Source of the DNA: Microbacteriaceae bacterium PS02066
Lineage (GTDB): Bacteria; Actinomycetota; Actinomycetes; Actinomycetales; Microbacteriaceae
Direction: 5' to 3'
Assembly: GCA_029959545.1 (NCBI GenBank)
Contig: JASCPH010000009.1
Coordinates: 1-64,000 of the forward strand
Length of the DNA stretch: 64,000 bases
The notes beneath the pieces were generated by a model. It was given only the letters and a program-made list of their open reading frames with translations. It was not told the origin of the DNA and did not search any database. Shown piece by piece: positions 6,727 to 59,732 of this stretch. Numbering within the stretch: position 1 is the first letter of the stretch; the number at the start of each line of letters is the position of its first letter. The position numbers and the translations under genes were made by a program.

Positions 6727-6732
6727 GCGGAC

Positions 6733-30549: not shown

Positions 30550-32417
<1,868 letters not shown>

Positions 32418-32422
32418 CCCCG

Positions 32423-33832: not shown

Positions 33833-33891
33833 CCCGAATGAGCGGGCTCGGCGGAGCCGTCGGCGCCCGCGAGTCTCCGAGCAACCCCCTG

Positions 33892-33899
33892 TAAGATCA
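33892..33899 (+). promoter_or_regulatory. -10-like box directly before the second exporter permease
   Basis: TAAGAT at 33892-33897 lies 7 bases before an internal ATG (33905), which would then be a leaderless start in preference to ATG 33899. A GC-rich hairpin (33842-33870) lies upstream and could end rmlCD transcription, though without a T tract. Confidence 0.4.
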
Positions 33900-34816: not shown

Positions 34817-34820
34817 CCCG

Positions 34821-42080: not shown

Positions 42081-43856
42081 GTGATCGCTCGTCTATTGGT
42101 GTACGACCGGACGCGGTGGGAGTTGCTCTACGGCGCCCTGCTGATCGCGGTGGTCACGGGGCTCGTCGCAGGCGGATCGTTCTTCCACCGCGACGATTTC
42201 GTCTACGCCGAGTTCTTCCAGCTCAACGCGTTGACGCCCGAGGTCTTCTTCCGCTCGTGGTTCGGCCATTTCGTGCCCGGCTACATCGCGTTCCTCACCG
42301 CGTTCCTGTCCGTGTTCGGGCTGTCTTGGCCCGCGGCACTCGCCTTCACCGCCGCGATCAATGTGGGCGCGTTCGTCGCCATCACACGCGCGCTCGACGC
42401 GGTGGTCGGCAAGGCCCGCTTCAACGTGATCGCCGGCCTCGCCTTCAGCCTGTCGCTCGGCCCCCTGGCTTCGAGGCTCTGGTGGGCGGCAACGCTCACC
42501 AATATGCTCGCCCTCGCGCTGGGCCTGGCGGTCCTGGGCTGCGCCACGCGCTGGGTGATCCACCGCCGCGCCGTGTATCTCGTCGCCGCGCTCGCCCTCT
42601 ACGTTGTCGCCTTGGCGATGAGCGAGAAGAACCTCTTGTTCTCCCTGCACATCGCCATGTGGTGCGCACTCGTCATCTGGCGCGGGCGACCGCTGGCGGA
42701 ACGTGCCCGAGAGGTCTTGCGCACGTGGCCCCTCTGGGCGGGTCTGCTGCTGATTTCTCTCGTCGAGGTCGTCGTCTTCATGACCGGCAGTTACATCGAG
42801 GAGTCCGGAACATCACCGTCCATCTCCGTGTCGCTCGCGTTCATCGTCGACAGCGTCGCGGGCGGGTTGATCCCGTCGGTCTTCGGCCTGGACATGGAGA
42901 AGGTCGTCTCGTCTCTCCTGGATCCGCGGATCGTGGCGGCGGCGGCGGTGTTCATCGCGTTCGTCATTTGGACCATCGTTCGTGTGCGATCAAACATGGG
43001 AGTGTGGGCATTCGCTCTCATCGGCACCCTCGCGAACGTGGTTGCCGTCTCTCGCCGCGCGGACGTGCTCGGCATCACAGGCGGGCGGAACTTGCGTTAC
43101 CTGTTGGAGAGCACCGCTCTCCTGTGGCTGGCGGTCGGCGTGGTGGTCGTGGTGACTCTGCGCGCGGGGATGAAGAGCGTCGAGACCGCAACGGCCCGAC
43201 GTAACCGCGTCGCGAGCATCGGCGTCGCAGCTGTCGGCATCCTGGTGTTCGCCCTGTCGACGGCGTCGTGGTCGCAGAGCCTCGCGCACGCGGTCGAACG
43301 GAACGAGGGCCGCGAAGCACGCGTGTGGGTCGAGGCGCTCCGCGAGAGCCTGCCACAGCCGCCACCTCCGCTCATCGACTCGCCGTTGCCCGAGTCCTTC
43401 GGCCTCCCCCCGCTCCACCCCTACGACATGGTGGCGGCCGCCCTGCCGAGCCTGGGCTGGAAAGATGTCCGCACGACGACATCGCTCGAGGGAGCCTGGG
43501 TTGTCGGGCCCGATGGTTCCGCGGGCCCCGCGACTATCGCGAACCCTCACGTCGCGCTCTCGGAAAGCGAGTGCAGCGATGGAAGCACCAACATCGCCGT
43601 GCCTCGAGCTCAGAGCGGCGGGCGTTCGTTCGTCATTCTGGAGTTCTCCCGCGCCACCGGCAGCACCGTTGCCTTCCTGTTCGACGATGGTTGGACGACG
43701 ATCGAACGCCCGGAGCAGTCCGGGGCGGTCGCCGTGTACATTCCGGGTCCCATCGACGGCGACCTGCAGATCAGCACCCAGGGCAACGCGATGTGTGTCG
43801 ATTCCGTGATCGTCGGCGACATCGTCCCCTCTCCGACTCCGCGCGAAGGGGACTGA
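42081..43856 (+). CDS. GT-C-like multi-pass membrane protein
   Basis: 591 aa with about 10 transmembrane helices in residues 15-420 and a C-terminal extracytoplasmic domain of ~170 residues. The first external loop carries the acidic pair in FFHRDDFVYAEFF, typical of GT-C glycosyltransferases that use polyprenyl-phosphate sugars. It precedes a GtrB-like/GtrA-like pair, so it may be the third member of a Gtr-type three-component glycan-modifying set. No specific family recognised; an alternative is a dolichyl-phosphate-mannose-protein mannosyltransferase relative. Confidence 0.75.
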   Translation: MIARLLVYDRTRWELLYGALLIAVVTGLVAGGSFFHRDDFVYAEFFQLNALTPEVFFRSWFGHFVPGYIAFLTAFLSVFGLSWPAALAFTAAINVGAFVAITRALDAVVGKARFNVIAGLAFSLSLGPLASRLWWAATLTNMLALALGLAVLGCATRWVIHRRAVYLVAALALYVVALAMSEKNLLFSLHIAMWCALVIWRGRPLAERAREVLRTWPLWAGLLLISLVEVVVFMTGSYIEESGTSPSISVSLAFIVDSVAGGLIPSVFGLDMEKVVSSLLDPRIVAAAAVFIAFVIWTIVRVRSNMGVWAFALIGTLANVVAVSRRADVLGITGGRNLRYLLESTALLWLAVGVVVVVTLRAGMKSVETATARRNRVASIGVAAVGILVFALSTASWSQSLAHAVERNEGREARVWVEALRESLPQPPPPLIDSPLPESFGLPPLHPYDMVAAALPSLGWKDVRTTTSLEGAWVVGPDGSAGPATIANPHVALSESECSDGSTNIAVPRAQSGGRSFVILEFSRATGSTVAFLFDDGWTTIERPEQSGAVAVYIPGPIDGDLQISTQGNAMCVDSVIVGDIVPSPTPREGD

Positions 43857-44093
43857 CGATCAGCACGCGACACCTCTCCGAGACATCGGTAGGGCGAAGC
43901 GCCGAGTTCCCCGAGTTTCCCAGCGCAGGCGGACGGTGTCTCGCAGACCGCGACAGTACACTGGTGGGGAAGACAACGAATCGATGCCGTCGCGCAGCGA
44001 CAACACCGATGGAGGACGGCGCGCCCCGTCTCGTCCGCGCGGTGCGGGCCCGTGGCCGCGAACGCCGGTGGGTCCTCCGTCAGAAGGAATCTC

Positions 44094-45206
44094 ATGAGTG
44101 AACATCCTGCGATCCCGTTCAATGATCTGTCGCGCGGGTTGCAGCGTGATCGCGAGAGCCTGTTGCGCGCTGCGGCGGAGGTCATCGATTCAGGGTACGC
44201 AGTCCACGGCACTCAGCATCGGGCGTTCGAGTCCGAACTCGCGGCGTACGTCGGTGTGGACCACGCGGTCGGTGTCGCCAATGGCACGGACGCGCTCGAA
44301 CTCGCGATCAAAGCGGTTCGCCCCGCTGACCGCTCCGTGGTGATCACCGCTGGAAACGCTGGTGGATACACCTCGACCGCCGTCGTGCGCGCCGGCCTGA
44401 CCCCCCGGTATGCGGACGTGGACCCCACGACGTTGTGTCTGACGGCGGACACGGTACGCGACCTGATCGACGACGAGGTCGGCGTCGTCGTCGTCACTCA
44501 TCTCTATGGACACGTCGGCGAGGTTTCTGCGTTGCGCGCGCTGTGCGACACCAGAGGAATCGCCCTTGTCGAGGACTGCGCGCAGGCGATCGGGGCAGAC
44601 TCACCCTCGGGCCGAGCCGGAACATTCGGTCACGCGGCGACAATCAGCTTCTACCCGACGAAGAACCTCGGTGCGGTCGGGGACGGTGGTGCGGTCGTCA
44701 CACGATCTCAGCACGTGGCAGACCGCGTGCGGCAGCTACGTCAGTACGGGTGGAGCACCAAGTACGACGCCGCACTATCAGGGGGAACCAATTCGCGCCT
44801 CGACGAGATGCAAGCTGCCTTCCTGAGGGTTCGCCTCCCCCTGGTCGACGGCTTCAATCAGCGTCGGCGGGACATCATCGCGCGGTACGGAACCGCCGCG
44901 TCCGGCGTCGACCCGGAGGCGCTCGCCGTCTTGCCTGCCCTCGGCGGCCACGGCGCCCACCTCGCCATCTGCCGCAGCCGCAAGCGGGACGCCGTTCGTG
45001 CGCGACTGCGCGAAGCGGGCATAGCCACCGATGTGCACTTCCCCCTCCCCGATTGGACGCAAGCGGCTTTCGCTCGGTACGCCCCTTCGGCGCCACTCCC
45101 GCACACCGAGGCAGCGTGCAATGAGGTGTTCAGCCTGCCACTCTTTCCGGAACTGTCCGAGGCCGAGGTGGAGCGCGTGTGCGCGACGCTGAGGAGCGTC
45201 GCGTGA
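44094..45206 (+). CDS. fdtB: DegT/DnrJ/EryC1 aminotransferase, FdtB/QdtB-like
   Basis: 370 aa PLP enzyme. GVANGTDALELAIKA, ITAGNAGGYTSTAVVRAGL, EDCAQAIGADSPSGRAGTFG, and the PLP-lysine motif FYPTKNLGAVGDGGAV. With RmlA/RmlB (30.5-32.4 kb) and the ketoisomerase encoded at 46.5 kb it would make a dTDP-3-amino-3,6-dideoxyhexose (Fuc3N or Qui3N). ATG 44094 follows AGAAGGAA. Upstream is a 237-base gap with a TACACT box at 43957. The gene is joined to the next by a GTGA overlap. Confidence 0.9.
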   Translation: MSEHPAIPFNDLSRGLQRDRESLLRAAAEVIDSGYAVHGTQHRAFESELAAYVGVDHAVGVANGTDALELAIKAVRPADRSVVITAGNAGGYTSTAVVRAGLTPRYADVDPTTLCLTADTVRDLIDDEVGVVVVTHLYGHVGEVSALRALCDTRGIALVEDCAQAIGADSPSGRAGTFGHAATISFYPTKNLGAVGDGGAVVTRSQHVADRVRQLRQYGWSTKYDAALSGGTNSRLDEMQAAFLRVRLPLVDGFNQRRRDIIARYGTAASGVDPEALAVLPALGGHGAHLAICRSRKRDAVRARLREAGIATDVHFPLPDWTQAAFARYAPSAPLPHTEAACNEVFSLPLFPELSEAEVERVCATLRSVA

Positions 45207-46132
45207 CGGCCTTCTCGATCGTCATCCCGGTGTACGGCAACGAGGAGAACATCCCTTCCCTCGTCGCCCGTCTCAACGAGCTCATGCGCGACCTCCCCGC
45301 GGACACCGAGGTGGTGTTCGTCGTGGACGGTTCACCCGATGGCTCCTACGAAGCGCTTGTCGCCGCCCTACCCGATGCGGGATTCCACTCTCAGCTGCTT
45401 CAGCACTCGCGTAACTTCGGCTCCTTCGCGGCGATCCGCACTGGCCTCGCCGCGGCACGGGGGGAAGCGATCGGCGTCATGGCCGCCGACCTGCAAGAGC
45501 CCGCAGAGCTGATGATCGAGTTCTCCCGCACCTTGTCGACGGGCGCGCTCGACGTCGTCGTGGGCCGCCGGACAGCTCGCAACGACCCCGCGTTGTCGAG
45601 CATCGGTGCGCGGACGTTCTGGGGTATGTACCGTCGATTCATCGCTCGTGACATGCCGCCCGGGGGCGTCGACGTCTTCGGATGCACCCGGGCTGTTGCG
45701 CAACAGCTGGTCCAGATGACCGAGGCGAACTCGAGTCTCGTTGCTCAACTGTATTGGGTGGGTTTTCGCCGAGCCGAGATCCCCTACGAACGCCAACCGC
45801 GCCAAGAGGGAAAGAGCCGTTGGACTCTGCGCAAGCGTCTCAAGTACCTCCTCGACAGCGTGTTCGCTTTCACGAACATTCCTTTGGACGTGCTCTTGGT
45901 CGGCGGCGTGCTCGGAGGTTTCCTCGTCGTGATCGTCGCGATGGTGATCCTCGGCTACTACCTCGCCGGACAGATCAATGAACCCGGATACGTGCCCCTG
46001 ATGCTGACGATCTTGTTCTCGACGTTCCTCACGATCACCTCGATTGGGATCGTCGGCGCATACGTTTGGCGAATCTTCGACAACACCAAGCAACGCCCCA
46101 CGGCCATCGTGATGAAGCGCGAGGAGTGGTGA
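45203..46132 (+). CDS. GT2 polyprenyl-phosphate sugar transferase, GtrB-like
   Basis: 309 aa. FSIVIPVYGNEENIPSLVARL, VVFVVDGSPDGSYEAL, RNFGSFAAIRTGLAAA and VMAADLQEPAEL match bactoprenyl-phosphate glucosyltransferases, including two C-terminal transmembrane helices (PLDVLLVGGVLGGFLVV and the MLTILFSTFLTITSIGIVGAYV region). It transfers a sugar to undecaprenyl phosphate. The GTG start overlaps fdtB's stop, suggesting that the transferred sugar may be the amino sugar made by neighbouring enzymes. Confidence 0.88.
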   Translation: MTAFSIVIPVYGNEENIPSLVARLNELMRDLPADTEVVFVVDGSPDGSYEALVAALPDAGFHSQLLQHSRNFGSFAAIRTGLAAARGEAIGVMAADLQEPAELMIEFSRTLSTGALDVVVGRRTARNDPALSSIGARTFWGMYRRFIARDMPPGGVDVFGCTRAVAQQLVQMTEANSSLVAQLYWVGFRRAEIPYERQPRQEGKSRWTLRKRLKYLLDSVFAFTNIPLDVLLVGGVLGGFLVVIVAMVILGYYLAGQINEPGYVPLMLTILFSTFLTITSIGIVGAYVWRIFDNTKQRPTAIVMKREEW

Positions 46133-46533
46133 CAGCCGTTCCGAATGGACGCCGCACCACGCGCCAAGCGGCGTGGCGGTTCCTCGTGATCGGTGCGACG
46201 AACACGCTCGTGACCACGGCAGTATTGGTCGGGCTCAGCTATGTCATGCCCGGGTGGCTGGCCTATACGATCTCTTTCGGCCTGGGATTGGTGTACTCCA
46301 CCGTGTTTGCCGCGAGGTGGGTGTTCACGCGCGACGGCTCCCCGCGCGCAGCGATCGCATACGCGCTCTGTTACGTCGTCATCTTCCTGGTCGGGCTCGT
46401 TGTCATCGCGGGTATCGAGGCCCTGGCGTGGCCCGCGTTCGCGAACGCCCTGAGCGTCGTGGTCACCGCACCTTTGGGTTTCGTGGCGGGTCGGATTGTT
46501 TTTGCAGAGCGTGAGAAAGGTCGACATGACTGA
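46129..46533 (+). CDS. GtrA-like flippase family protein
   Basis: 134 aa with four transmembrane helices. RFLVIGATNTLVTTAVLVGL and FGLGLVYSTVFAARWVFTRDGSP are the GtrA (PF04138) signature. GtrA proteins are proposed to flip polyprenyl-phosphate sugar to the outer face. GTG overlaps the GtrB stop; the end overlaps the next gene by 8 bases. It completes a GtrA/GtrB pair. Confidence 0.9.
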   Translation: MTAVPNGRRTTRQAAWRFLVIGATNTLVTTAVLVGLSYVMPGWLAYTISFGLGLVYSTVFAARWVFTRDGSPRAAIAYALCYVVIFLVGLVVIAGIEALAWPAFANALSVVVTAPLGFVAGRIVFAEREKGRHD

Positions 46534-47440
46534 CACGGCAGGCTACTTCGTACACGAGAACGGAATCTGCGAGAGCACGGCGGTGGGCAGCGGCACCAGG
46601 ATCTGGGCGTTCTCACACGTGCTCCCCGGTGCCGTGATCGGTGACGACGTCAACGTCAATGACCACGTCTTCGTGGAGAACGATGTCCGAATCGGCGACC
46701 GAGTGACGCTCAAGTCGGGCGTCCAGATCTGGGACGGAATCCGTTTGGGCGATGACGTCTTCGTCGGCCCCAATGTCACCTTCACCAACGACCGATTCCC
46801 CCGCAGCAAGCAGTACCCCGATTCCTTCGCCACGACAGTGATCGAAGACGGCGCATCACTTGGCGGAGGAGCGGTGATCCTGCCTGGCATCCGCGTCGGA
46901 CGGAGGGCCATGGTGGGAGCGGGCGCCGTCGTGACGAAGGATGTGCCGCCCTACGCGATCGTCGTCGGGAATCCCGCCCGTATCGTCGGATACACCGAGA
47001 CAGCAGGAGGTCATGTTCCCGAGACGGCCCCCGTCGCGGGAACGACTGCGGGGTTGACGCGTTTGCGGACGGTGAGCGACATCCGCGGAGCGCTACTCCC
47101 GATCGATCTTCCCGGCGATCTTCCGTTCGAGGCGCAGCGGGTGTTCTTCGTTTACGGAGTTCCGTCGAAGGAGGTGCGCGGTGAACATGCGCACCGGCAG
47201 TGCGAACAGTTCCTCGTCTGCCTGACCGGTAGCGTCTCGTGCATCGTGGATGACGGCAAGGACCGAAGCGCCTACGTGCTCGACGATCCGTCACTCGGCC
47301 TCTACATGCCGAAGATGACATGGGGCACCCAGTACGACTACAGCCCCGATGCTGTGCTGATCGTCTTCGCATCCCATCCGTACGACGATGGCGACTACAT
47401 CCGCGACTATGAGGAGTTCCGGGAATTGGCGAACTCTTGA
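46526..47440 (+). CDS. Fused N-acetyltransferase / dTDP-sugar 3,4-ketoisomerase (FdtD-like)
   Basis: 304 aa with two domains. Residues ~15-165 are a left-handed beta-helix acetyltransferase with hexapeptide repeats (IGDDVNVNDHVFVEND, LGDDVFVGPNVTF, RRAMVGAGAVVTKDVPPYAIVVGNPARIVG). Residues ~180-304 are a WxcM/FdtA-type cupin with GEHAHRQCEQFLVCLTGSV and PKMTWGTQYDYSPDAVLIVFAS. Together with the aminotransferase they would make dTDP-3-acetamido-3,6-dideoxyhexose (Fuc3NAc or Qui3NAc). A bifunctional enzyme with these two activities (FdtD) is known in Shewanella. A GAAAGG site precedes ATG 46526. Confidence 0.87.
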   Translation: MTDTAGYFVHENGICESTAVGSGTRIWAFSHVLPGAVIGDDVNVNDHVFVENDVRIGDRVTLKSGVQIWDGIRLGDDVFVGPNVTFTNDRFPRSKQYPDSFATTVIEDGASLGGGAVILPGIRVGRRAMVGAGAVVTKDVPPYAIVVGNPARIVGYTETAGGHVPETAPVAGTTAGLTRLRTVSDIRGALLPIDLPGDLPFEAQRVFFVYGVPSKEVRGEHAHRQCEQFLVCLTGSVSCIVDDGKDRSAYVLDDPSLGLYMPKMTWGTQYDYSPDAVLIVFASHPYDDGDYIRDYEEFRELANS

Positions 47441-48069
47441 ATGCGGATGCGGATGCGGGACGGCGTGCGGGGGGGACGAACCCTCCCGGCTCCGAGATCG
47501 CCTCCCTGCCGGGCGACCGCGCTGGCAGAACGTGGTGCCTCTTCTTGGACCGCGATGGCGTCATCAACGAGAGGATCCGCGACGGCTACGTCCGCACATG
47601 GGACGGTTTTCATTTCCTCCCCGGCGTTCTCGACGCGCTTCGGTCGCTCGCGGCGTGGGCACCGCGCATCGTCGTCGTGACGAACCAGCAGGGCGTCGGC
47701 AAGCGACTCATGAGCGCGGATGCTCTAGACGAGATCCACCGCCAGATGGTCAGCGACGTGGCGCAGGCGGGCGGGCGCATCGACGCCGTGCAGTACTGCC
47801 CGCATCTGGCGTCCGAGGAATGCACGTGCCGCAAACCCCTGCCGGGAATGGCGACGGCTTATCTGGACGCGCACCCCGACATCGACGGTTCACTGAGCAT
47901 CATGGTCGGCGACACCGACTCCGACATCGAAATGGCGCGGCGATTGGGTGCCATCACCGGGGGCTGCGTCGCCGTGCGCATCGACGGCGCGCAGGACCCG
48001 TGTGCAGACCTGACGTTCATCGGTCTGACGGAGTTCGCCGCCGCCGTCGACGCGGCGCGTAGGTCTTAA
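47437..48069 (+). CDS. gmhB: HAD-type D-glycero-manno-heptose 1,7-bisphosphate phosphatase (GmhB-like)
   Basis: 210 aa. HAD motif I is CLFLDRDGVINERIRDGYVR, motif II is IVVVTNQQGVGKRLMS, the zinc loop CPHLASEECTCRKPLPGM has three Cys plus His, and motif IV is SIMVGDTDSDIEMA. The zinc loop is characteristic of GmhB. The only upstream start is TTG 47437 (TTGA overlap with the previous stop), giving a ~30-residue extra N-terminus that starts with a short GCGGAT tandem. It converges with gmhA by a 4-base overlap and acts in the same pathway. Confidence 0.87.
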   Translation: MNADADAGRRAGGTNPPGSEIASLPGDRAGRTWCLFLDRDGVINERIRDGYVRTWDGFHFLPGVLDALRSLAAWAPRIVVVTNQQGVGKRLMSADALDEIHRQMVSDVAQAGGRIDAVQYCPHLASEECTCRKPLPGMATAYLDAHPDIDGSLSIMVGDTDSDIEMARRLGAITGGCVAVRIDGAQDPCADLTFIGLTEFAAAVDAARRS

Positions 48070-48647
48070 TCCGTCGAGTAGCCGAAGCCGTCTTCGATCG
48101 CCTGCATGAGCGAGTGGATGACCACGAGCTCTGACTCCTGGATGCGGTCCGCCCAGCGACTCTCCCCCAGGGCGAACGAAACGTCAGCCACCTCTGAGAT
48201 CGCTGTCCGGGCGGGACCCGAGGAGGCCACGACCGTCCCGCCGGCGGCCTTCATCGCCTCGGCGGCACGCAAGACGTTGGCGGACTTCCCGCTCGTGCTC
48301 AGCGCGAGCAGCACGTCTCCGGGACGCGCGAGGGCCTCGATGAACTTCGAGAACACGTACTCATAGCCGTAGTCGTTCGCCACGCACGTCAGGTGCGAGG
48401 GGTCCGAGATCGCGATCGCGCGCAGCGGCGGACGACTGGCACGGAATCGCCCCGTCAACTCCTCCGCGAAGTGCTGCGCGTTGGTCATGGAACCGCCGTT
48501 GCCGCACGCGAAGAGAGTGCCCCCGCTCTTGAGACTCGTGACCATCAGGTCGGAGGCGCGCTCGAACGCGAGCCCGAAGCTCTCGTCATTCGCGAGCGCC
48601 GTCATACGCGCCGCGTTTTCGAGGAGATTGTCTGCGACGACACTCAT
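48066..48647 (-). CDS. gmhA: Sedoheptulose 7-phosphate isomerase (GmhA-like)
   Basis: 193 aa SIS-domain protein: LFACGNGGSMTNAQHFAEELTGRF, VFSKFIEALARPGDVLLALSTSGKSANVLRA. These match GmhA/LpcA, which makes D-glycero-D-manno-heptose 7-phosphate, the first step of ADP-heptose synthesis. ATG 48647 is preceded by GGAAGGTG at good spacing; the GTG at 48656 is less likely. It lies just downstream of hldE on the same strand. Confidence 0.92.
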   Translation of the reverse strand: MSVVADNLLENAARMTALANDESFGLAFERASDLMVTSLKSGGTLFACGNGGSMTNAQHFAEELTGRFRASRPPLRAIAISDPSHLTCVANDYGYEYVFSKFIEALARPGDVLLALSTSGKSANVLRAAEAMKAAGGTVVASSGPARTAISEVADVSFALGESRWADRIQESELVVIHSLMQAIEDGFGYSTD

Positions 48648-48674
48648 GCCGTTCACCTTCCCGTTCTCGCCGCG

Positions 48675-50159
48675 TCAGTCGCGGCGCACCTGCTGCCCCT
48701 GCGACAGCCTTGTCGTGGAGACGCCGTCGAGCAGCGAGACGATGTGTACCGTCCCACCCCAGGCTTTGGCGTCGTCGCCCCCCACCACCTCATCGGGTCG
48801 GTAATCCGAGCCCTTGACGATCACATCAGGGCGGATGGCACGGATAAGGTCGCGGGGCGTGTCCTGTTCGAACACCGTGACGAAGTCGACGTAGCGCACG
48901 GCATCGAGCACCGCCATCCGGTCCGCTTGGGGCTGCAGCGGTCGCGCCGGGCCCTTCAGTCGCGCGGTCGAGGCGTCCGAGTTGACGCCGACGACGAGCA
49001 CGTCACCCAGACCGCGAGCCTCTTTCAGCAGGCTCACGTGACCCGCGTGCAGCAGATCGAACACGCCGTTCGCGAACACGACCCGCTTGCCCGCTGCCTT
49101 CTCGACCGCGACGAGCTGCGCCAGCTCCTCCCAGTCCTCGATCGTTCCGGGGCGGTCCTCGGGAGCGGATTCCACGAGCAGCTCGTTGAGGAGGTCGGCG
49201 GCGGTGACGACGGCGGTCCCGGGACGCCCGCAGGCGATTCCCGCGGCCATGTTGCCCACCTGCACGGCCTGGAGGATCGTCATCCCGCTCGCGAGGCCGA
49301 CAGCGATGCCCGAGATCATCGAGTCCCCGGCACCGGACACGTCGGAGACGAGTCGAGCGCGGGTGGGGATGCGGGTGCGGGAGTGCTTCTCGATGACTTC
49401 GACGCCGATCGCCGACAACGACACGGCGAGGGCGCCAATGCCCTCCACCAGCAGTCGTTGCGCGATCGTGTCGAGGCTCGCCTCGTCCGGGGCGGATGCC
49501 GTGAGGCCCGCCATCTGCGAAGCCTCGGCGAAATTGGGCTTGACGACGGTCGCACCCCGGTACTTCCGTATGTCGTCCGATTTGGGGTCCGCGATCACCG
49601 GAACGCTGTACGTCTGCGCCACCGCGACGATCCTGGCCACCAGGGCCGCGTCGAGAAGTCCCTTCGCGTAGTCGGAGATCACGACCGCTGTGGCTCGAGA
49701 GTTCCCTTCCAGCGCGTCTTGCAGCGCTCCGACCACCTCGTCCGCGCTGACGGTATCGAGCGCGGCCTTGTCCTCGCGATCGAGCCGGACGATCTGCTGC
49801 TGACCCGCCACGACACGGAGCTTCTCGATGGTGGGCGCGTCGCCACGCTGCACCCGCACGGTCGACACCCCCGCGTGTTCGAGGATGCGCTCCAACTCAC
49901 GACCGGACGCATCCAGCGCCCAGGACGTGATCAAGGTCGTACGCGCACCCAGCGCCGCGATGTTCATGGCTGCGTTGGCCGCGCCACCTGCGACGCTGCG
50001 GTCCTGATGCACCTGGAGGACGGGAATCGGCGCCTCCGGCGAGATGCGGTTGACCACGCCCTCCACGTACCGATCCAGCATGGCGTCGCCGATCACGATG
50101 ACGTGCGTGTCCTCGAACTCGAGGAGATGACGCGGGGTGATCAATGACGAAGAGAGCAT
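48675..50159 (-). CDS. hldE: Bifunctional heptose 7-phosphate kinase / heptose 1-phosphate adenylyltransferase
   Basis: 494 aa. Residues ~15-325 are a ribokinase-like kinase: GGAANAAMNIAALGA and SDVSGAGDSMISGI with the catalytic Asp. Residues ~360-494 are a cytidylyltransferase-fold domain: VFANGVFDLLHAGHVSLL (HxGH) and VIVKGSDYRPDEVVGG. This is the usual HldE architecture, which makes ADP-D-glycero-beta-D-manno-heptose. The pathway is standard in Gram-negatives and less common in actinobacteria. The start is ATG 50159; residues before it lack similarity. Confidence 0.94.
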   Translation of the reverse strand: MLSSSLITPRHLLEFEDTHVIVIGDAMLDRYVEGVVNRISPEAPIPVLQVHQDRSVAGGAANAAMNIAALGARTTLITSWALDASGRELERILEHAGVSTVRVQRGDAPTIEKLRVVAGQQQIVRLDREDKAALDTVSADEVVGALQDALEGNSRATAVVISDYAKGLLDAALVARIVAVAQTYSVPVIADPKSDDIRKYRGATVVKPNFAEASQMAGLTASAPDEASLDTIAQRLLVEGIGALAVSLSAIGVEVIEKHSRTRIPTRARLVSDVSGAGDSMISGIAVGLASGMTILQAVQVGNMAAGIACGRPGTAVVTAADLLNELLVESAPEDRPGTIEDWEELAQLVAVEKAAGKRVVFANGVFDLLHAGHVSLLKEARGLGDVLVVGVNSDASTARLKGPARPLQPQADRMAVLDAVRYVDFVTVFEQDTPRDLIRAIRPDVIVKGSDYRPDEVVGGDDAKAWGGTVHIVSLLDGVSTTRLSQGQQVRRD

Positions 50160-50208
50160 GGATGGTTCCAGAGCTTGATTCGAGCAGGACCGAACGAGAC
50201 TATCCGAC

Positions 50209-51453
50209 TCAGCTCGCGGCACCCTGGAGCAATCCCGTGATCGCCGTGACGGCGTCGGCGGCCCGCACCTGTCGGATGCAGTGCGGCTCGCCCGCGACGC
50301 ACTCCTCGGTGCAGTCCGGCGACGGCGTAGCCGGCTGAAGCACGACGTTCCGGGCAGACCAGGGCCCGAATCGCTCGGGCGCGTTGTCGCTCCACGGCGA
50401 ACCGCTCGCGGGATGACAGGTCACGACGACGATCGGAAGGTCGATCGCGCTGGCGATGTGCTGGAGGCCCGAATCGTTGCCCAGGAACAGATCCGACCGG
50501 GCGATCGCCGCGGCGCTCTCGCTGAGCGTCAATCCGCCCGCGAGGTCGAGGGCGGCGATGCCACGCTGGCGCAGGAGCTGCGCGAGACGTTCCGCACGCT
50601 GCGCGTCGACCGCACCACCGAGGATCTGCACCGTGACGGGACCCGCCTCGGCGAGTGCGCCCATCGCTTCACTCACATCCTCCACGGGCCACTGACGCTT
50701 GGCGTCGCGTGCACCGATCCCGATGGCAACGACGAGTCCCGGCGCGGACGGCAACGGCGCCATCTCGGCGACGCGTTTCGCGTCGCGATCGTCGAAGAGC
50801 TCGTGCCCGATCGACGGGTTCTGAGCCGTCGGCCAGTCAAGTCCGAGGCGCTGGGCGACCCTGCGTAGCTGCCCGACGGTCAGCAACGGCGTGTCTCCCC
50901 GTTCGATCTCATCGGTCAACAACTGGGACTGGTCGCCGAACCACACCGGCTCCCTTTCGGGCACGGGCGCGAACCCGACGATCGAACGGGCGCGGGATGC
51001 AGCGGCGAGGTAGCGCACGGGTGTGTCGTCGAAATCCCACCGCGGAAGGACCGCAAGGTCGTAGCCCCGCAGCCGGAAGCGACGCAGCGCCTGTCTCGCG
51101 GTGAGGATCTGCCGCTTGGGCGCCGATCCTTCGGTGATCGGCGTCCACTCGATGACCCGGTCCACTGTCGATGCCGCGTGGAACATCGCCGCCGGTCCAG
51201 GCTTGACCACGAGGTGGATCACGGTCTTCGGCCACTGCAGACGCATCGCCGCCAGCAGCGCCAGCGTGGTGGCCGTATCGCCGATCTCGTCGCTGCGCAG
51301 GATGACGACGCGGCGCGGCGCCTTCGCTGGGTCCCAGGGGCGTCGGCGCCAGGAGCCGAACAGCCGGAGAAACAGCCGCGGGGACAGTGGGTCCCGATGG
51401 CGGATGGCGTTCGCCGTCCACACGATCCGTCGGAGCAGGTTACGTGGCCTCAC
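50209..51453 (-). CDS. Glycosyltransferase family 9 (heptosyltransferase-like)
   Basis: 414 aa. VVILRSDEIGDTATTLALLAAMR at the start of the Rossmann domain, HLVVKPGPAAMFHA, then the donor-binding half GARDAKRQWPVED and LFLGNDSGLQHIASAIDLPIVVV. GT9 members are ADP-heptose transferases, fitting the adjacent GmhA/HldE genes. The enzyme probably puts a heptose on the surface glycan. It overlaps the previous gene by 4 bases. A C-terminal Cys-rich stretch (CTEECVAGEPHC) resembles that of other GT9 proteins. Confidence 0.9.
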   Translation of the reverse strand: MRPRNLLRRIVWTANAIRHRDPLSPRLFLRLFGSWRRRPWDPAKAPRRVVILRSDEIGDTATTLALLAAMRLQWPKTVIHLVVKPGPAAMFHAASTVDRVIEWTPITEGSAPKRQILTARQALRRFRLRGYDLAVLPRWDFDDTPVRYLAAASRARSIVGFAPVPEREPVWFGDQSQLLTDEIERGDTPLLTVGQLRRVAQRLGLDWPTAQNPSIGHELFDDRDAKRVAEMAPLPSAPGLVVAIGIGARDAKRQWPVEDVSEAMGALAEAGPVTVQILGGAVDAQRAERLAQLLRQRGIAALDLAGGLTLSESAAAIARSDLFLGNDSGLQHIASAIDLPIVVVTCHPASGSPWSDNAPERFGPWSARNVVLQPATPSPDCTEECVAGEPHCIRQVRAADAVTAITGLLQGAAS

Positions 51454-53726
51454 CGATCGAGTCTATCGACGCCGGAGCGCGCCGCCTTCGCCGCCTCGGC
51501 CAGCACGGCGGCGCGGGCGTCGAACGAGTGCTCGCGCCTCACGGATTCGCTGATCTCCTTCAGCCGGTCGGCGTTCGGGAAAAGCGTGTCCGCATCGGAG
51601 CGGAGGAGCTCGACGAGATGCTCGGCGTCGCGATACGTCACGACTGCCCCCTGGAAGAGCTCTTCGATGCCATAGACCTGCTCGGAGATCACGCGCCCGC
51701 CGACGGCGACGACGTCGAACGGTCGCATCGCGATGAACCCCTCGCGACGCATGGCGGGCCATTGGTCGTTGAGGACGACCGACGCCCGCTCGTAAAGGGC
51801 CGGGAGTTCCTCGTTGTCGATGGACTCGGCAGTGATGGCGGATGCGGGAACGAAGGGACGCCAGTCGGGGCCGTAGACCTTCACGTCGATGCCGGCGCGC
51901 ACGGGCGCCACGACACTGGGCCGCGGAATGCCCCGCGCCGTGCCCACGAAGACGATGTCGTCACCGCGCGCGAGCCCTCGGGGGGTGAACTTGTCGGTGT
52001 CCGTGCACTCGAGCAGCGGCTCCACCGCGATGCCCCACCGCTCGCCGGCTCGTTCAGCCCACGGCGCGGAGGCGGCGAAGACACGGTCGAACTGCTTCAG
52101 CTCGGCCCGGGTGATCTCATCAGGGTGGCTGATGATCCACTCCAGGTTGACTCCCGTCGCCGGCGGCTGGATGCGGTACGGGCCACGCACGACGACGTTG
52201 ACGTCATCGAGGTAGGCCGTGGGCCTTCGAGCCGCACCGAAAGCGTCGATGACGACGACGTGTCCGGCACGGCGAAGTGCGGCGGCGAGACCGTGAGCGA
52301 AATGTGTGTCACCCCACACCTCGCCACGCTTGCCCGCTGGCGAACAGATCTTGATCGCCCACCTCTGCTGCGACACGTCACGACGGCGTACCTCGAGGAC
52401 AGGGACGGCGGTACCCCCATCGAGGCGCCATCCACGTACCGAGAAGCCGGCCTCGGCGAGGATGTACTCGACCCGTTGGTGATCATCGCCGGACACGCGC
52501 ACGGGCACCGGGCGCCCGTCGCCCCGACCGCGTCGGAACGCGTACTCGGGTTCATCGAGCACAGGAGCAACGGCGGGAAGGGCGATGCACCGGGGCATGT
52601 TCTGCCACGCGATGCCCGAAAGGTCGTCGACCGATCGGCTGGCGAAAGCGACCCGTGTCGCCGCGCGAGGCATGACGAACGAGCGACCCAATGGCCGCGG
52701 AACCTCGACGTGGTCGCCAAGGCGCAACACGTCCTCATGGGGATGACCGCCGAGCACGACACAGTCGCCGCCGGCGACGTCCACCCGCCCGATGCCCACT
52801 CCACACGAGGTACCGTCGCCCTCGCGGTGGACGGGGACGACGCACACGCCAGTCTCGGCGCGCCCGACCAGCTCCGCGAACTCCTCGTCCGTCACCGAGC
52901 CGCGGGCATCGAGGACGGCGACAAGCGGAGCGCTCCCCCCCTCGGTCGCATCGGCGACGACTCGTGACCAGATCGTCCTCGCGGGATACGAGCGAAAACG
53001 GATACGCGGCTGCACCCCTGCCATCAGGGCGGACGTCACCCACTGGGATGCATCGACATCGACCAGAGCCACCGTCGCAGTGAGGCGCCCATCAGCGACC
53101 AGACCCGCGACCTGAGCCAGCTTTCGCGCGTAGCCTCGATCGCGGCCCTGCACGACGCGCACGAGATCGAGCTCGCTCTCCGATCCCAGCTCGGCTGTGC
53201 GGGGGAAACGACCTCGGCGCCACCCGCGTGCGGCGCCGATCGCCTCGCGCCGCAGTTGCGCGAGGGTGAGTTCGCGACGTGCTCCCGGGGCGGACAGGAG
53301 GATGCGGGTGTCATGGGTCCGCCAGACGTCCTCGAGCGCCGCCTGCTGGTCGCCCGGGTTCTCTCGTGCGTAGGCCACGGCATCCCACAGCGGGTGCACC
53401 TGGACGGTCGGGCGGTCACTCAGCAGGTACGCGTACAGCGCAGGCACACGGAAGACCTCCGGCAGTGTCCCACCTGCGTGGATCTCGTCGAACAGCGGAT
53501 TGAGACTCAGCCCACGGCGAAAGCCCACGGCGATGTAGTGCGCGATCGCCGCATCCCGCGGGAGCGCGCTGACGCCGAGCTGCGCAGCGTAGAAGGCTGC
53601 GTCGACGAGATCCGAGCGCCGGATGATGCGCCACCACCACAACCGGTCGCCGGCCCGTATGGCGGGTCCGAGCACCGGAACATCTCGGAGCGCCCGAACA
53701 AGGCGACGCAGACGGGTCTTCAGCAC
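51450..53726 (-). CDS. Large glycosyltransferase with N-terminal rhamnan-synthesis-like region
   Basis: 758 aa. The N-terminus (~1-130) has the pattern FYAAQLGVSALPRDAAIAHYIAVGFRRGLSLNPLFDE, seen in many surface-glycan transferases. The middle region (~130-420) has no clear family. The C-terminal ~320 residues include a GT-B-like domain (NVVVRGPYRIQPPATGVNLEWIIS, VFVGTARGIPRPSVVAPVRAG, YERASVVLNDQWPAMRREGFIAMRPFDVVAVGGRVI) of the Glyco_trans_1_2/CgeB group. GTG 53726 has GAGGG upstream; a TTG at 53732 would overlap the previous stop. Donor unknown. Confidence 0.8.
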   Translation of the reverse strand: MLKTRLRRLVRALRDVPVLGPAIRAGDRLWWWRIIRRSDLVDAAFYAAQLGVSALPRDAAIAHYIAVGFRRGLSLNPLFDEIHAGGTLPEVFRVPALYAYLLSDRPTVQVHPLWDAVAYARENPGDQQAALEDVWRTHDTRILLSAPGARRELTLAQLRREAIGAARGWRRGRFPRTAELGSESELDLVRVVQGRDRGYARKLAQVAGLVADGRLTATVALVDVDASQWVTSALMAGVQPRIRFRSYPARTIWSRVVADATEGGSAPLVAVLDARGSVTDEEFAELVGRAETGVCVVPVHREGDGTSCGVGIGRVDVAGGDCVVLGGHPHEDVLRLGDHVEVPRPLGRSFVMPRAATRVAFASRSVDDLSGIAWQNMPRCIALPAVAPVLDEPEYAFRRGRGDGRPVPVRVSGDDHQRVEYILAEAGFSVRGWRLDGGTAVPVLEVRRRDVSQQRWAIKICSPAGKRGEVWGDTHFAHGLAAALRRAGHVVVIDAFGAARRPTAYLDDVNVVVRGPYRIQPPATGVNLEWIISHPDEITRAELKQFDRVFAASAPWAERAGERWGIAVEPLLECTDTDKFTPRGLARGDDIVFVGTARGIPRPSVVAPVRAGIDVKVYGPDWRPFVPASAITAESIDNEELPALYERASVVLNDQWPAMRREGFIAMRPFDVVAVGGRVISEQVYGIEELFQGAVVTYRDAEHLVELLRSDADTLFPNADRLKEISESVRREHSFDARAAVLAEAAKAARSGVDRLDR

Positions 53727-53728
53727 TC

Positions 53729-54655
53729 TCAACGTCCCTCGCGCCCGCGTCGCAGGCGGCGCAATCGCCGCCACAGCGGGTGCCGGTCGTAGATCGCCGC
53801 GACGATCTCCTCGCGCTGACGCGCGAGCCGGTCCTCCAGCTCGCGCGCGAACTCCTCGCGCAGGCGCCGCTCGATCGCCGCCAGGTACAGCGGGAGCCCC
53901 GCGCCGTTCGTCGCGACCCACTCGCGCAACGCCGCATCCCGCACGGCGGCGTCGTCGCGCTCGTGCGCGCCGGCCAGCTCGAACATGCTGTTGGCGTCGG
54001 CGCCGACGGTGTCGGGTCGCTGCGTCCAGAACGCGAGCGGCTCGCCGGCGAGGAATCCGACCGGACGCACCGCGGTCACGCGCAAATAGAACTCCCAGTC
54101 CTCGACGGTCTCGAGGTTCTCGTCGTAGTAGCCGACCTGGTCGTGCAGTTCCCGACGATAGAGGAACGAGATCGGCACGGCACGGTTCACCTCGAGGAGG
54201 CTCGAAAAGGTGACGGCGGTCATTCCGCGCCAGAAGGGCTCACGTCCGTACTCGACCCAGCGCCCGTTCTCCCGGCGCTCGTAGACGATCTCCGTTGCCG
54301 TCATCACGCCCGCATCCGCCGGATGCGCGTCGAGGTGCGCGACCGTCTGCGCGAGAAACGTCGGCGCCCACCGGTCGTCGTCGTCGTGGAGGACCACGAA
54401 CTCGGCGTCTGTGCTGCGTAGACCCAGATTCGCCGCGGCGCAGCGCCCGCCCGGCGCCTCGGTCTCCACCACACGCACGCGGTCGGCCACCGTCGAGGCG
54501 GCGACCGTGTCGCCGATGGGACCGAGAGCACCCTGGTCGTTCACGACCACGATCTCGGCGTCGGAGTACGTCTGCGACGCGACATCGGCCAGCGCCCGCG
54601 CGAGGAACTCCGGACGGTCCTTCGTACGGACGATGACAGCGACGCGCGGGTTCAC
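53729..54655 (-). CDS. GT2 family glycosyltransferase
   Basis: 308 aa. VAVIVRTKDRPEFLARALADV, AEIVVVNDQGA, FVVLHDDDDRWAPTFLAQTV (DXD) and VGYYDENLETVEDWEFYLRV (acceptor/base Asp or Glu). A helical C-terminal tail rich in Arg and Glu (REEFARELEDRLARQREEI) may be a coiled coil. Two bases separate its stop from the GTG of the next gene. Confidence 0.86.
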   Translation of the reverse strand: MNPRVAVIVRTKDRPEFLARALADVASQTYSDAEIVVVNDQGALGPIGDTVAASTVADRVRVVETEAPGGRCAAANLGLRSTDAEFVVLHDDDDRWAPTFLAQTVAHLDAHPADAGVMTATEIVYERRENGRWVEYGREPFWRGMTAVTFSSLLEVNRAVPISFLYRRELHDQVGYYDENLETVEDWEFYLRVTAVRPVGFLAGEPLAFWTQRPDTVGADANSMFELAGAHERDDAAVRDAALREWVATNGAGLPLYLAAIERRLREEFARELEDRLARQREEIVAAIYDRHPLWRRLRRLRRGREGR

Positions 54656-54677
54656 GCCCCCAGCCTATCCAGCGCCA

Positions 54678-55784
54678 TCACAGCTCCGAATGCAGGGCCC
54701 AGACGCGCTCGGCGTGGTCGCGCCAGGAGAAGGCACGACCACGATCGGCGGCGCGCACCGCGTACCGCTTTCTGCTCTCCTCTGAGGCGAGCACCTGCCC
54801 GAGCGCGTCCGAGAAGGACTCGACCGGGGCGATCAGCGCACCGTCGAGGAGCACCTCCTCGTGAACGTCCGAGGCCATCGCCACGAGAGGCACGCCGAGC
54901 GTCAGCGCCTCGACCGCGCGCCACGGGAAGGCGCTGAGCGCCGAGGGCGCGATCACCGCCGTCGCGACGTCGAACACGGACGCCCGGTCGGGCGCGTCGG
55001 GGTGCGTGTGCACGCGGACGCGCTCGGCGGAGAGCCCCGCGGCCGCGGCGAGGTCGAGAACCCGCTGCTCCGACCCGGGAAGCGCGTCCATCACCACGAC
55101 ACCTCGATCGCAGCCGTGCGAGGCGATCGCAGAGAACGCGGTGGCGAAGGCGGCGTCGTCGCACCGGGACCCTGCGACGACGATGACCTCCTCCCCGACG
55201 CCGAGTTCACGGCGCCGGCCGACCGCATCCGAGGGCACGGTGAACCCGCGTGGCGCAGCACCCGGGATGACCCGCACACGTCCCGCCAGCCGCGGCGCGA
55301 TCTCGGCGAGCTTGGCTGCGAGCGCGTGTGTGGGAACGACGACGGCGTCGGCGAACTTCTCTGCGCGGCGCAGCAGCGCACGCTGCGAGGCCACGGCGGC
55401 GCGGGGAAGATCGCCGGGGATCTCCCAGGCGCACAGCTCCCACAGCGTCACGACGGTCTGGTCGTTGTCGTTCACGCGATCGTGACGCACCAGCGGCGCG
55501 AGTGGTCCCGGCGCATGGATGAGCCCTCCGCCGATGCCGGGTGCGATCCCGAGCTGCCATGACGCGGCCAAGGCGGGCCGCGCCAGAGGTGCGCGCCAGA
55601 CATCCGCCAGTCCGGCGATCTCGGCCGCAGCGCTCTCCGCACCGGCCGGCACGATGGCACCGACCGCGCATCCGCGCGGCGCCGTCGCTACGAGGGCGGC
55701 AGCGATCTCGCGCGCGGCTTCGGCGGCATCCGGATCGACCACATCGATCAGCTGATCGAGCACGAGGCGGAGCGTGACGGTCAT
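54678..55784 (-). CDS. GT4 family (GT-B) glycosyltransferase
   Basis: 368 aa. The donor-binding half shows VVVPTHALAAKLAEIAPRLAGRVRVIPGA, EVIVVAGSRC and SALSAFPWRAVEALTLGVPLVAMASDVHEEVLLDGA, the usual E-x7-E type region, though the first Glu is partly replaced. The N-terminal acceptor half is less conserved. It is likely to add one residue in the glycan; the sugar is not identified. Confidence 0.82.
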   Translation of the reverse strand: MTVTLRLVLDQLIDVVDPDAAEAAREIAAALVATAPRGCAVGAIVPAGAESAAAEIAGLADVWRAPLARPALAASWQLGIAPGIGGGLIHAPGPLAPLVRHDRVNDNDQTVVTLWELCAWEIPGDLPRAAVASQRALLRRAEKFADAVVVPTHALAAKLAEIAPRLAGRVRVIPGAAPRGFTVPSDAVGRRRELGVGEEVIVVAGSRCDDAAFATAFSAIASHGCDRGVVVMDALPGSEQRVLDLAAAAGLSAERVRVHTHPDAPDRASVFDVATAVIAPSALSAFPWRAVEALTLGVPLVAMASDVHEEVLLDGALIAPVESFSDALGQVLASEESRKRYAVRAADRGRAFSWRDHAERVWALHSEL

Positions 55785-55844
55785 CCTTCGAGACTACCCA
55801 TCCGTTCGCGTCGGCTTCTGGGAGCTCACCGCTCCGGTATGCTC

Positions 55845-57320
55845 TCAGCCCTCCGGAGTCGGGGAGGGCGTCGGCGGATAAAGGGCCTGCTGCACGATCT
55901 GGTGCACCTTGTCGTAATCCGGGTTGCGATCGTCGATCCCACCCTGGGGCGTCAGCTCGATCGAGGTAACGGGTTGTTTTTTCGCCTTGATGGCGAGCTC
56001 GACGAAGTACCCGAGCATGGTCTGCGGGATGTCCGTCTTGACGAGGTGCGTGCCCGCTGCGGCGACGTCCTGGAACCGGCTGAGGACGTTGCCCGGGGTG
56101 AACTGCGCGAGGATCGCCTCCTGCAGCTGCCGCTGGCGCAGCATGCGGTCCCAGTCGTTCGTCGTATAGCGCGAGCGGGCGTACCACTGGGCCGTGTCGC
56201 CGTCCATGTGCTGCTCACCGGGCTCGATCCACCCGATCGCCCACTCCTCGGCGCTCTGCCCCTCGTAGGCGGGTCCGCCGCCCTTCGGCAGGCGCTCGGT
56301 CACGTTGATGTCGACACCTCCCAGCGCATCGATCAACGCGGCGAAACCGTCCATGTCGATGAACGCGTAGAACGGGATCTGGATGCCGAGGATCCCCTCC
56401 GCGGCGTCCTTGGTCGCTTCGATCCCGGGCTCGGAGCCGTTGGCGACCGCATCCGGATAGATCGAATTGCCGTCCTGGCAGACCTCGACCTCGGTACGCA
56501 GCTGGTTGATCCCGCTACCCCACCCGCACGTGGCGCTGGGGTGCGATTCGTGACCGTTCGGGTACTTGTCCTGCATCGGCCCCGGGGCGAACGGAAAGTT
56601 GGGCATGTCCCGCGGGATTCCGAAGATCGTGGTCGCCCCGGTCTGGGCGTTGATCGAGACGACCGAGATGCTGTCGAACCGCATGGAGTCGCGGCCCTCG
56701 CCGCTGTCTGCGCCGAGCAGCAGGATGTTGTAGTAGCCGTCGACGGGTTCCACGGCGGGCCCGGTCTGGGTGAAGACCGCACCGAGCGCGTCGCGCGCGG
56801 CACCGACCGAGTTCGACGCCCAGACCGCACCCGCACCGGACAGCACGAGAGCGCCGATGGCGACGATCGAGGTCGCGAGTCGCGCCCAGGGCCGGACTTT
56901 CACAAGTCGGACGAGACGAAGGGTGTCGATCGTGAGGACGATCCACAGTCCCGCGTAGAGGAACAGTATCCCCTGCACGATCAGCATGGGCACAGGGCGG
57001 AGGAGAGCGAGCCATCCCGGAACCCAGGCACCCGTGGCGAGATCGACGAACGTACCGAGATCGATCAACGCGATCACGGCGCAGATGAGCGCGAGCGCCC
57101 ACAGCAGCAGCGTGGCACCGAGGCCGAACCGTCCCAGCCGACGGTTGCCCGCCAGCGCCTGAGCGGAGCCCGGCACCAGGAAGTTCAGCACAACGAGCCA
57201 CCACGCGCGACGAGTCATCACGGTGCGTGACGAGCTGTCGGGATATCGCAGCGGGTAGGGGTTCACCACGGGCGGAGCCGCCTGCCGCCGGCCGGGGCGC
57301 GGCGGGCTCACGGCACTCAC
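55845..57320 (-). CDS. LCP (LytR-CpsA-Psr) family wall-glycan ligase
   Basis: 491 aa. About four N-terminal transmembrane helices (residues ~35-170), then the LCP domain: [38 protein letters not shown] with its key Arg, [26 protein letters not shown], and [25 protein letters not shown] with the Arg residues that bind the lipid pyrophosphate. LCP proteins transfer undecaprenyl-pyrophosphate-linked glycan to peptidoglycan. Placed at the end of the locus, it is the best candidate for the final attachment step. GTG 57320 overlaps purE's stop. Confidence 0.93.
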
Positions 57321-57832
57321 AAAGAGTCCTTCAGCCGCTGGTTCTTCTGCTCGACGATCTGCTCCAGCTCCCTCGCGTACGACTCGAGTCGATCGGCGAT
57401 ACCGGGGTCCCCCGCGCCCAGGATCCGCGCGGCCAGGATTCCGGCGTTGCGCGCCCCGCCGATCGAGACGGTCGCGACGGGGATCCCTGCCGGCATCTGC
57501 ACGATGCTCAGCAGCGAATCGAGACCGTCCAAGGTCGCGAGCGGGACGGGGACTCCGATCACGGGGAGCGGGGTGACGGAGGCGAGCATCCCGGGCAGGT
57601 GCGCCGCCCCGCCCGCACCGGCGATGATGACGCGAAGCCCGCGCGAGCGAGCGTCGACGCCGTACCGGTGCAGCTTCTCGGGAGTGCGGTGCGCCGAGAC
57701 GACCTCGACCTCGTGCGGGATGCCGAACTCGGTGAGAGCGGCCGAGGCCTCGCTCATCACACGCCAATCCGAGTCGGAGCCCATGACGACGCCGACCAGG
57801 GGCGCCTCGGAAGAATGCAGCGGCCGGGTCAC
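57317..57832 (-). CDS. purE: N5-carboxyaminoimidazole ribonucleotide mutase
   Basis: 171 aa, usual size for class I Pur[50 protein letters not shown] and [14 protein letters not shown] are catalytic and phosphate-binding segments. Acts after PurK in purine synthesis. GTG start; it overlaps the LCP gene by 4 bases. The purE-purK pairing with LCP and birA is also found in mycobacteria. Confidence 0.96.
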
Positions 57833-57892
57833 CCGTCAAGGCTAGGCGGCGTCACTGGAAGATCACCGCAACGGCGCGCGAGGTCGGACCCG

Positions 57893-59029
57893 TCAGTCCA
57901 AGAAGTGCGCGGCCGCGGCCCGCGCCTCGTAGACCACGTCGTCGAGGTCGTCGCCGGCGACATTGACGTGCCCGACCTTGCGCCCCGGGCGGGGTGCCTT
58001 GCCGTACGTGTGCACCTTCGCAGCCGGATGCGCGGACATGGCGGCGTCGAACCGGTCCTCGAGCGTCCCCTCGGCGGGTCCGCCCAGGATGTTGATCATC
58101 ACCGACCACGGCGCGCGCACGCGTGCAGCGCCCAGCGGCAGATCGAGCACGGCACGCAGGTGCTGCTCGAACTGGCTCGTGACGGCACCGTCTTGGCTCC
58201 AGTGACCGCTGTTGTGCGGCCGCATCGCGAGCTCGTTGACGAGCAGTCGCTCGTCCGTGGTCTCGAAGAGCTCCACCGCCAGCATGCCGGTGACACCGAG
58301 GCCCTCCGCGATCGCGATGCCGATGCGCTCGGCCTCCGCGGACAGTCGGCCTTGCGCACCGGGGGCGGGTGCCACGACCTCGGCGCAGACGCCGTCGCGC
58401 TGGACCGTCTCGACCACCGGGTACGCGACGATCTCGCCGGAGGGCCGCCGCGCGACCTGCTGCGCGAGCTCGCGGCGGAAGTCGACGAGCTCTTCGACCA
58501 GGAGGGCTCCGCCACGGGCGTCCTCCGCCAGGGCGGTGAACCAGTCCTGCGCCTCGGTCGCCGCCGACACCACACGCACGCCCTTGCCGTCGTAGCCGCC
58601 GCGCGGCGTCTTCACAACCGCACGATGGCCGTGGTCGTCGAGGAACTCCTGCAGCTGATCGGCGTTCTCCACGCGCGCCCAGTCGGGCTGGGGCATGCCG
58701 AGCTGCGTCAGTCGCTCGCGCATCTCGAGCTTGTCCTGGGCGAACCGCAGCGCATCGGGGCCAGGATGCACGGCGACGCCGTCGGCGACGAGAGCGCGCA
58801 GCACATCCTGCGGCACGTGCTCGTGATCGAAGGTCAGCACATCCACGTCGCGGGCGAAGGCGCGCACCGTCTCCAGGTCGCGGTAGTCGCCCACCGCCGT
58901 CGCGGCGAGCGCCGCGCTCATCCCCTCGGACTCGGCCAGCACCCGGATCTCGAGTCCGAGCTCCGCCGCCGGAGCGATCATCATCCGGGCGAGCTGTCCG
59001 CCGCCCACGACTCCCACGCGCACCGCCAT
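57893..59029 (-). CDS. purK: N5-carboxyaminoimidazole ribonucleotide synthase
   Basis: 378 aa ATP-grasp enzyme: VGVVGGGQLARMMIAPA, TPRGGYDGKGVRVV, EELVDFRRELA, VELFETTDERLLVNELAMRPHNSGH. It carboxylates AIR with bicarbonate and ATP. ATG 59029 is preceded by AAGGGGA. A longer open frame to 59551 shadows the PH-domain gene and is rejected. Sixty bases lie between purK and purE. Confidence 0.96.
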   Translation of the reverse strand: MAVRVGVVGGGQLARMMIAPAAELGLEIRVLAESEGMSAALAATAVGDYRDLETVRAFARDVDVLTFDHEHVPQDVLRALVADGVAVHPGPDALRFAQDKLEMRERLTQLGMPQPDWARVENADQLQEFLDDHGHRAVVKTPRGGYDGKGVRVVSAATEAQDWFTALAEDARGGALLVEELVDFRRELAQQVARRPSGEIVAYPVVETVQRDGVCAEVVAPAPGAQGRLSAEAERIGIAIAEGLGVTGMLAVELFETTDERLLVNELAMRPHNSGHWSQDGAVTSQFEQHLRAVLDLPLGAARVRAPWSVMINILGGPAEGTLEDRFDAAMSAHPAAKVHTYGKAPRPGRKVGHVNVAGDDLDDVVYEARAAAAHFLD

Positions 59030-59103
59030 GATTCCCCTTCCGGACGCTGACCATTCTTCCTCACGCCGGCGCCGACCGCGGGCGCCGCGGGGACGACGGC
59101 CGA

Positions 59104-59661: not shown

Positions 59662-59732
59662 GCTCCCATTGTGCCCTGCGCCGCCGCGCACACGCTGCTC
59701 ACACGCCCGCCATGCGGCGACGGATGCGGCGC

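Follow-up and report, generated by a model that had tools for sequence, protein, structure and literature searches.

A heptose gene cassette in a Microbacterium surface-glycan locus and its probable product, ADP-D,D-heptose

The first 64,000 nucleotides of contig JASCPH010000009.1 from Microbacteriaceae bacterium PS02066 (assembly GCA_029959545.1) were analyzed; this whole stretch is referred to as the window. It contains a discrete heptose cassette within a surface-glycan locus, and this cassette probably makes ADP-D,D-heptose and adds D,D-heptose to a surface glycan. An earlier note on the same DNA had placed GmhB, GmhA, HldE and a GT9 transferase together at positions 47437-51453. Open reading frames (ORFs) and family scans confirmed the grouping but showed GmhB on the strand opposite to GmhA, HldE and GT9. 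The host was, as had been supposed, a Gram-positive actinobacterium. The closest named relatives of HldE were found on four Microbacterium contigs (73-75% identity), and by its sequence the source genome is a Microbacterium.

Composition, distribution and insertion of the cassette

The cassette consists of a GT2 gene, usually a large glycosyltransferase gene, and the genes for GT9, HldE and GmhA, with GmhB facing them. A GT4 gene flanks it on one side and an LGFP-repeat gene on the other, and the locus as a whole begins with purK-purE-LCP, LCP being directly upstream of GT4. GmhA, HldE and GT9 form the downstream end of the minus-strand run that starts with purK-purE-LCP-GT4. The genes of the cassette and of its conserved frame are as follows.

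38691-41375, minus strand: LGFP-repeat protein (PF08310), part of the conserved frame at the GmhB end of the cassette
47437-48069, plus strand: GmhB-like D,D-heptose-1,7-bisphosphate 7-phosphatase (NF006506, E 5e-41; closest solved relatives 4pnh and 3l8h)
48066-48656, minus strand: GmhA-like sedoheptulose-7-phosphate isomerase (NF001628, 188 bits; TIGR00441, 175 bits; PDB 1x94, E 2e-49)
48675-50222, minus strand: HldE, two-domain heptose-7-phosphate kinase/heptose-1-phosphate adenylyltransferase (NF008454, 446 bits; coordinates use the first possible start)
50209-51453, minus strand: GT9 heptosyltransferase-like glycosyltransferase (PF01075, 64 bits, cut-off 22)
51450-53669, minus strand: large glycosyltransferase with a PF13524 C-terminal part (start inferred; longest ORF to 53921)
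53729-54655, minus strand: GT2 glycosyltransferase, first cassette gene (PF00535; in all nine Microbacterium carriers)
54678-55784, minus strand: GT4 glycosyltransferase (family scan), part of the conserved frame, just upstream of where the cassette joins it
55845-57239, minus strand: LCP-family glycopolymer-peptidoglycan transferase (TIGR00350, 63.9 bits, cut-off 62.3; start inferred)
57317-57832, minus strand: purE, conserved frame (TIGR01162, 218 bits)
57893-59050, minus strand: purK, conserved frame (NF004680, 551 bits; start inferred, ORF to 59551)

At the gene level the ADP-D,D-heptose pathway was complete, with the predicted isomerase, kinase, phosphatase and adenylyltransferase all retaining intact motifs. 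The DxD motif and zinc loop (C-x-H...C-x-C) of GmhB were invariant relative to E. coli GmhB. In comparison with the E. coli K-12 proteins, H61, E65, Q172 and H180 of GmhA were invariant, and GAGD, HxGH and STT were kept in HldE, which was 42% identical to its E. coli counterpart. A search of solved structures with HldE returned the heptose-7-phosphate kinase 4e84 (2e-46) and the nucleotidyltransferase 5x9q (4e-31). The positions kept in GmhB, GmhA, HldE and GT9 include those that we take to be catalytic. The strict cut-offs of the pathway-specific NCBIfam models were missed with the exception of rfaE_dom_II, which HldE barely exceeded in the family scan (181.7 against 181.5 bits). gmhB and gmhA are convergent and overlap by 4 bp at their 3' ends, and the GT9 and HldE ORFs share 14 bases.

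Nine of the 149 sampled Microbacterium genomes (G000, G183, G167, G206, G156, G218, G232, G229 and G221) encode a GT9 with 65% identity or more, and six further genomes yielded weak matches only. GT2, GT9, HldE and GmhA were codirectional, with GmhB opposing, in every one of the nine carriers, although a contig end cuts GmhB in G167. The large glycosyltransferase lay between GT2 and GT9 in eight carriers and elsewhere in G232. Outside Microbacterium the cassette was detected in 1 of 349 sampled family genomes, G132, which belongs to another genus (GT9 64-65%, HldE 78%, GmhA 81%); galactofuranan genes adjoin it there, and the large glycosyltransferase is located elsewhere. Among 296 phylum genomes a comparable GT9 was present in the source genome only; no more than five or six candidates per genome were scored in the family and phylum surveys, which may therefore miss weak relatives. 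The rarity of the pathway implied by the earlier note was overstated, as 35 of the 296 Actinomycetota genomes and 24 of 150 from the family had an HldE domain II match above the cut-off. Within Microbacterium this held for 14 of 149 genomes, comprising the nine carriers and five genomes with only a second heptose locus, described below (G181, G186, G205, G224 and G242); G190 and G248 remained under the cut-off with 142 and 153 bits.

Twelve Microbacterium loci without the cassette were inspected; they were hand-picked, not random, and two of the genomes (G181 and G224) have the second locus. Ten of the 12 have the LGFP-repeat gene right after GT4, the two matches being no more than about 350 bases apart. 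Wzt takes that place in L142, and L140 has a different gene order. The closest non-carrier, G284 (PurK 97%, LCP 95%), gave an 88% DNA match with the window over 54673-60467, ending at the GT4 end (window position 54673). Because most of the inspected non-carriers have GT4 and LGFP adjacent and the G284 match stops at GT4, the cassette is best seen as a unit that would have been gained or lost as one. Plus-strand ORFs 55839-57230 and 57227-59050 and minus-strand ORF 57852-59054 were rejected as conserved genes, being wrong-frame shadows of LCP, purE and purK. A count of 147 of 149 Microbacterium genomes for a shadow ORF reflects purK and was not used as evidence.

Donor nucleotide, epimer and transferase

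The earlier note had proposed an ADP- rather than a GDP-linked donor. ADP was indeed favored as the donor nucleotide, because HldE has two domains and carries LLDGVSTT in place of GRSTT. The motif (F/L)XXGRSTT is given as a mark of relaxed nucleoside triphosphate use in heptose nucleotidyltransferases (STTR5) in two reports (PMC11573728, PMC11461863), and the latter adds that its arginine is not strictly required for promiscuity (PMC11461863). The cassette HldE does not match this motif, and valine replaces the arginine in all nine Microbacterium carriers. GmhB scored 140 bits on the beta-anomer model compared with 71.5 on the alpha model; the GDP-D,D-alpha-heptose pathway (HddA/HddC) was compared via GmhB alone.

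A clear HldD epimerase had likewise been reported missing, and the genome-wide search bore this out: no match in the source genome passed the TIGR02197 cut-off (best 92 of 274.6 bits). None of the 20 genomes searched did so, all ten known carriers (the nine from Microbacterium plus G132) being among them. With 0 of 20 genomes above the HldD cut-off, the cassette is likely to yield ADP-D,D-heptose; the suggestion that the heptose may stay in the D,D form was thus supported, since without HldD the donor would not leave that form.

The GT9 enzyme gave the single GT9 match in the source genome. It falls into CAZy family GT9 by its PF01075 score (64 against 22 bits) and its GT9-type GT-B fold. A sequence search of solved structures returned WaaC (3e-6) and WaaF (1e-5), and the WaaC positions G12, D13, W194, G263 and H266 are kept. 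An AlphaFold2 model was built from five sequences (predicted local distance difference test score (pLDDT) 67, predicted template modeling score 0.69). Its best matches were a Veillonella GT9 (Z 27.6), WaaF (Z 25.7) and WaaC (Z 23.8-24.9), followed after the GT9 structures by an entry with Z 19.4; TibC reached Z 17.3. A fold does not prove a donor, and ADP-heptose is the donor that we infer for this enzyme.

Together with the cassette GT2 and the large glycosyltransferase, GT9 would put heptose into a cell-surface glycan. The recipient would be one of the glycans encoded in the window, which has genes for rhamnose and galactofuranose as well as two ABC exporters, and the neighboring LCP enzyme may join the heptose glycan to peptidoglycan.

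Several results weigh against this reading. GT9 is 21% identical to WaaC and misses the cut-offs for lipopolysaccharide (LPS) heptosyltransferases I, II and III (TIGR02193, 51.5 of 185.3 bits; TIGR02195, 53.2 of 134.6; TIGR02201, 44.2 of 170.2), and its model is only moderately confident (pLDDT 67). Non-carriers have LCP in their conserved frame too (11 of the 12 inspected loci; not found in L140), and it is not specific to a heptose polymer. The GT4 match in G284 is in two pieces. At the DNA level the insertion has a sharp border towards GT4 but none towards LGFP, where the repeat protein of G284 is divergent (48%). Finally, of five aligned short-chain dehydrogenases/reductases (SDRs) of the source genome (matches L006 and L009 were left out of this alignment), one, at 22188-23240, has S116, Y140, K144 and K178, all four of the HldD positions compared. 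Such an SDR, acting in place of a recognized HldD, could yield ADP-L,D-heptose as the donor, and a two-part SDR match to TIGR02197 was present in seven of the nine Microbacterium carriers. We regard an alternative epimerase as unlikely: G232 and G221 have no two-part match, an SDR 40% identical to 22188-23240 occurs in the non-carrier locus L132, and the protein, an apparent nucleoside diphosphate (NDP)-sugar epimerase, scores higher as GalE (128 bits) and dTDP-glucose dehydratase (123 bits) than on TIGR02197 (116 bits).

The low identity of GT9 to characterized heptosyltransferases would also fit a different donor for this enzyme, with the heptose used by another transferase or never transferred. 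The adjacency of GT9 to the window-type HldE in all nine Microbacterium carriers and the overlap of the two ORFs in the window make this quite improbable. That GT9 heptosylates a surface protein in the manner of TibC/AAH, possibly the neighboring LGFP-repeat protein, is very unlikely. The structural matches of the model do include TibC, whose structure was solved with ADP-D,D-heptose, and HldD never exceeded its cut-off in the 20 genomes; both would fit this reading. WaaC and WaaF nevertheless fit the model better (Z 24-26 against 17), the TibC/Aah model TIGR04414 was not among the GT9 family matches at E 0.001, and further transferases and glycan exporters surround the gene. A diffusible natural product, as for septacidin, is a very improbable destination. 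ADP-heptose use in actinobacteria is known from two papers (PMC11461863, PMC10948575), but LCP, Wzm and Wzt are neighbors of the heptose genes, and family scans of the neighborhood, which took in part of the window ORFs, returned many glycan genes and no natural-product synthase.

Origin, second heptose locus and surrounding glycan genes

A tree of 47 HldE sequences was rooted at the midpoint, with E. coli as the one Gram-negative sequence; duplicates (L010-L013) and matches spanning fewer than about 380 query residues were omitted. The cassette clade grouped with E. coli HldE (support 97/93), and three other Actinomycetota sequences (L104, L109 and L110) formed the next branch beside this pair. 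The cassette clade was separate from two clades holding the HldEs of the second locus. This placement hints at an LPS-type source of the cassette HldE. Lower G+C content (64-70% across 42-56 kb compared with 69-72% beyond 56 kb) was considered as a sign of transfer, but is weak and was not used. A bolder version of the proposal, which we hold only tentatively and consider rather doubtful, is that a horizontally acquired, LPS-core-like D,D-heptose module was built into a peptidoglycan-linked wall glycopolymer, and that wall serotype and the production of ADP-heptose, an ALPK1 agonist, switch between related Microbacterium according to whether they have it.

The second Microbacteriaceae heptose locus contains two didomain HldEs from separate clades. 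It was seen in L081 (G224, 6576-18589), with three GT9s and an aldehyde dehydrogenase next to HldE2, and also in L078, L079, L080, L082, L083, L085 and L086. The promiscuity motif GRSTT is found in the HldE1 of several genomes but in none of the HldE2 copies. In L160 (G623, 10256-13967) and L089 (G190, 6264-9941), GmhA occurs with two-piece HldE matches and a GT9 of about 30% identity; the L160 arrangement lies beside galactofuranan and Wzm/Wzt genes.

Other genes of the window were identified as follows.

30550-36050, plus strand: RmlA, RmlB, RmlC/D fusion, Wzm and Wzt, for dTDP-rhamnose synthesis and ABC glycan export (family scans)
42081-43856, plus strand: membrane protein, about nine spans predicted (Pfam and NCBIfam both without a match at E 0.001)
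44052-47440, plus strand: inserted block of DegT aminotransferase, GT2, GtrA and acetyltransferase/WxcM-like genes (family scans)

The block at 44052-47440 is a further variable insert, present in three of the nine Microbacterium carriers (G000, G183 and G221; the G167 contig ends at GmhB). It includes a hexapeptide acetyltransferase fused to an FdtA/WxcM-like domain and is likely a 3-amino-3,6-dideoxyhexose module. The large multi-span membrane proteins at 28499-30475 and 42081-43856, one with DUF6541 and one without a family match, are possible GT-C enzymes. UDP-galactopyranose mutase, GlfT2, two ABC exporters and two O-antigen-ligase-like proteins are also encoded in the window.

Relation to known heptose systems

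The cassette shares the four predicted activities, a bifunctional HldE and the GT9 fold with the Gram-negative LPS route (GmhA, GmhB, HldE, HldD and WaaC/WaaF), but has no HldD over the cut-off, and its genes form a single cluster within the surface-glycan locus of a Gram-positive bacterium. TibC and AAH are protein heptosyltransferases of related fold, which use the D,D-heptose form without HldD; the GT9 structural match to TibC is weaker than that to WaaC/WaaF. The second Microbacteriaceae locus has GmhA, GmhB, HldE and GT9 enzymes in common with the cassette, but differs in place and gene order as well as in its two HldEs from two other clades. An actinobacterial supply of ADP-heptose is shared with the NDP-heptose synthetases of actinobacteria and the septacidin pathway; a study by Tang in 2022 reportedly, by its title, dealt with such synthetases. 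Unlike these, the cassette has a two-domain HldE that groups with that of E. coli and stands in a glycan locus, not in a natural-product cluster.

ADP-heptose is usually regarded as a Gram-negative signal. Because NDP-heptose enzymes of actinobacteria are known and HldE domain II is found well beyond the carriers in the family and phylum surveys, the pathway in an actinobacterium is not new. The setting of the cassette in an LCP-headed wall locus looks new: among the matches listed in the open-licence literature, as far as the texts were accessible, no report of a heptose wall polymer in Microbacteriaceae or of such a setting was recognized. One paper describes a single Cryobacterium strain with a GT9 family enzyme, with no pathway given (PMC12113805), another calls ADP-heptose a Gram-negative metabolite (PMC12137129), and a 2024 commentary describes the role of heptose outside LPS as little studied (PMC11573728).

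The presence or absence of the cassette in an LCP-headed glycan locus is visible only by genome comparison, which was beyond the reach of the earlier note. The cassette raises the questions of whether Gram-positive bacteria are recognized through ALPK1 and of what heptose does outside LPS. A carrier and a related genome without the cassette at the same place form a natural pair for asking about heptose in Gram-positive envelopes.

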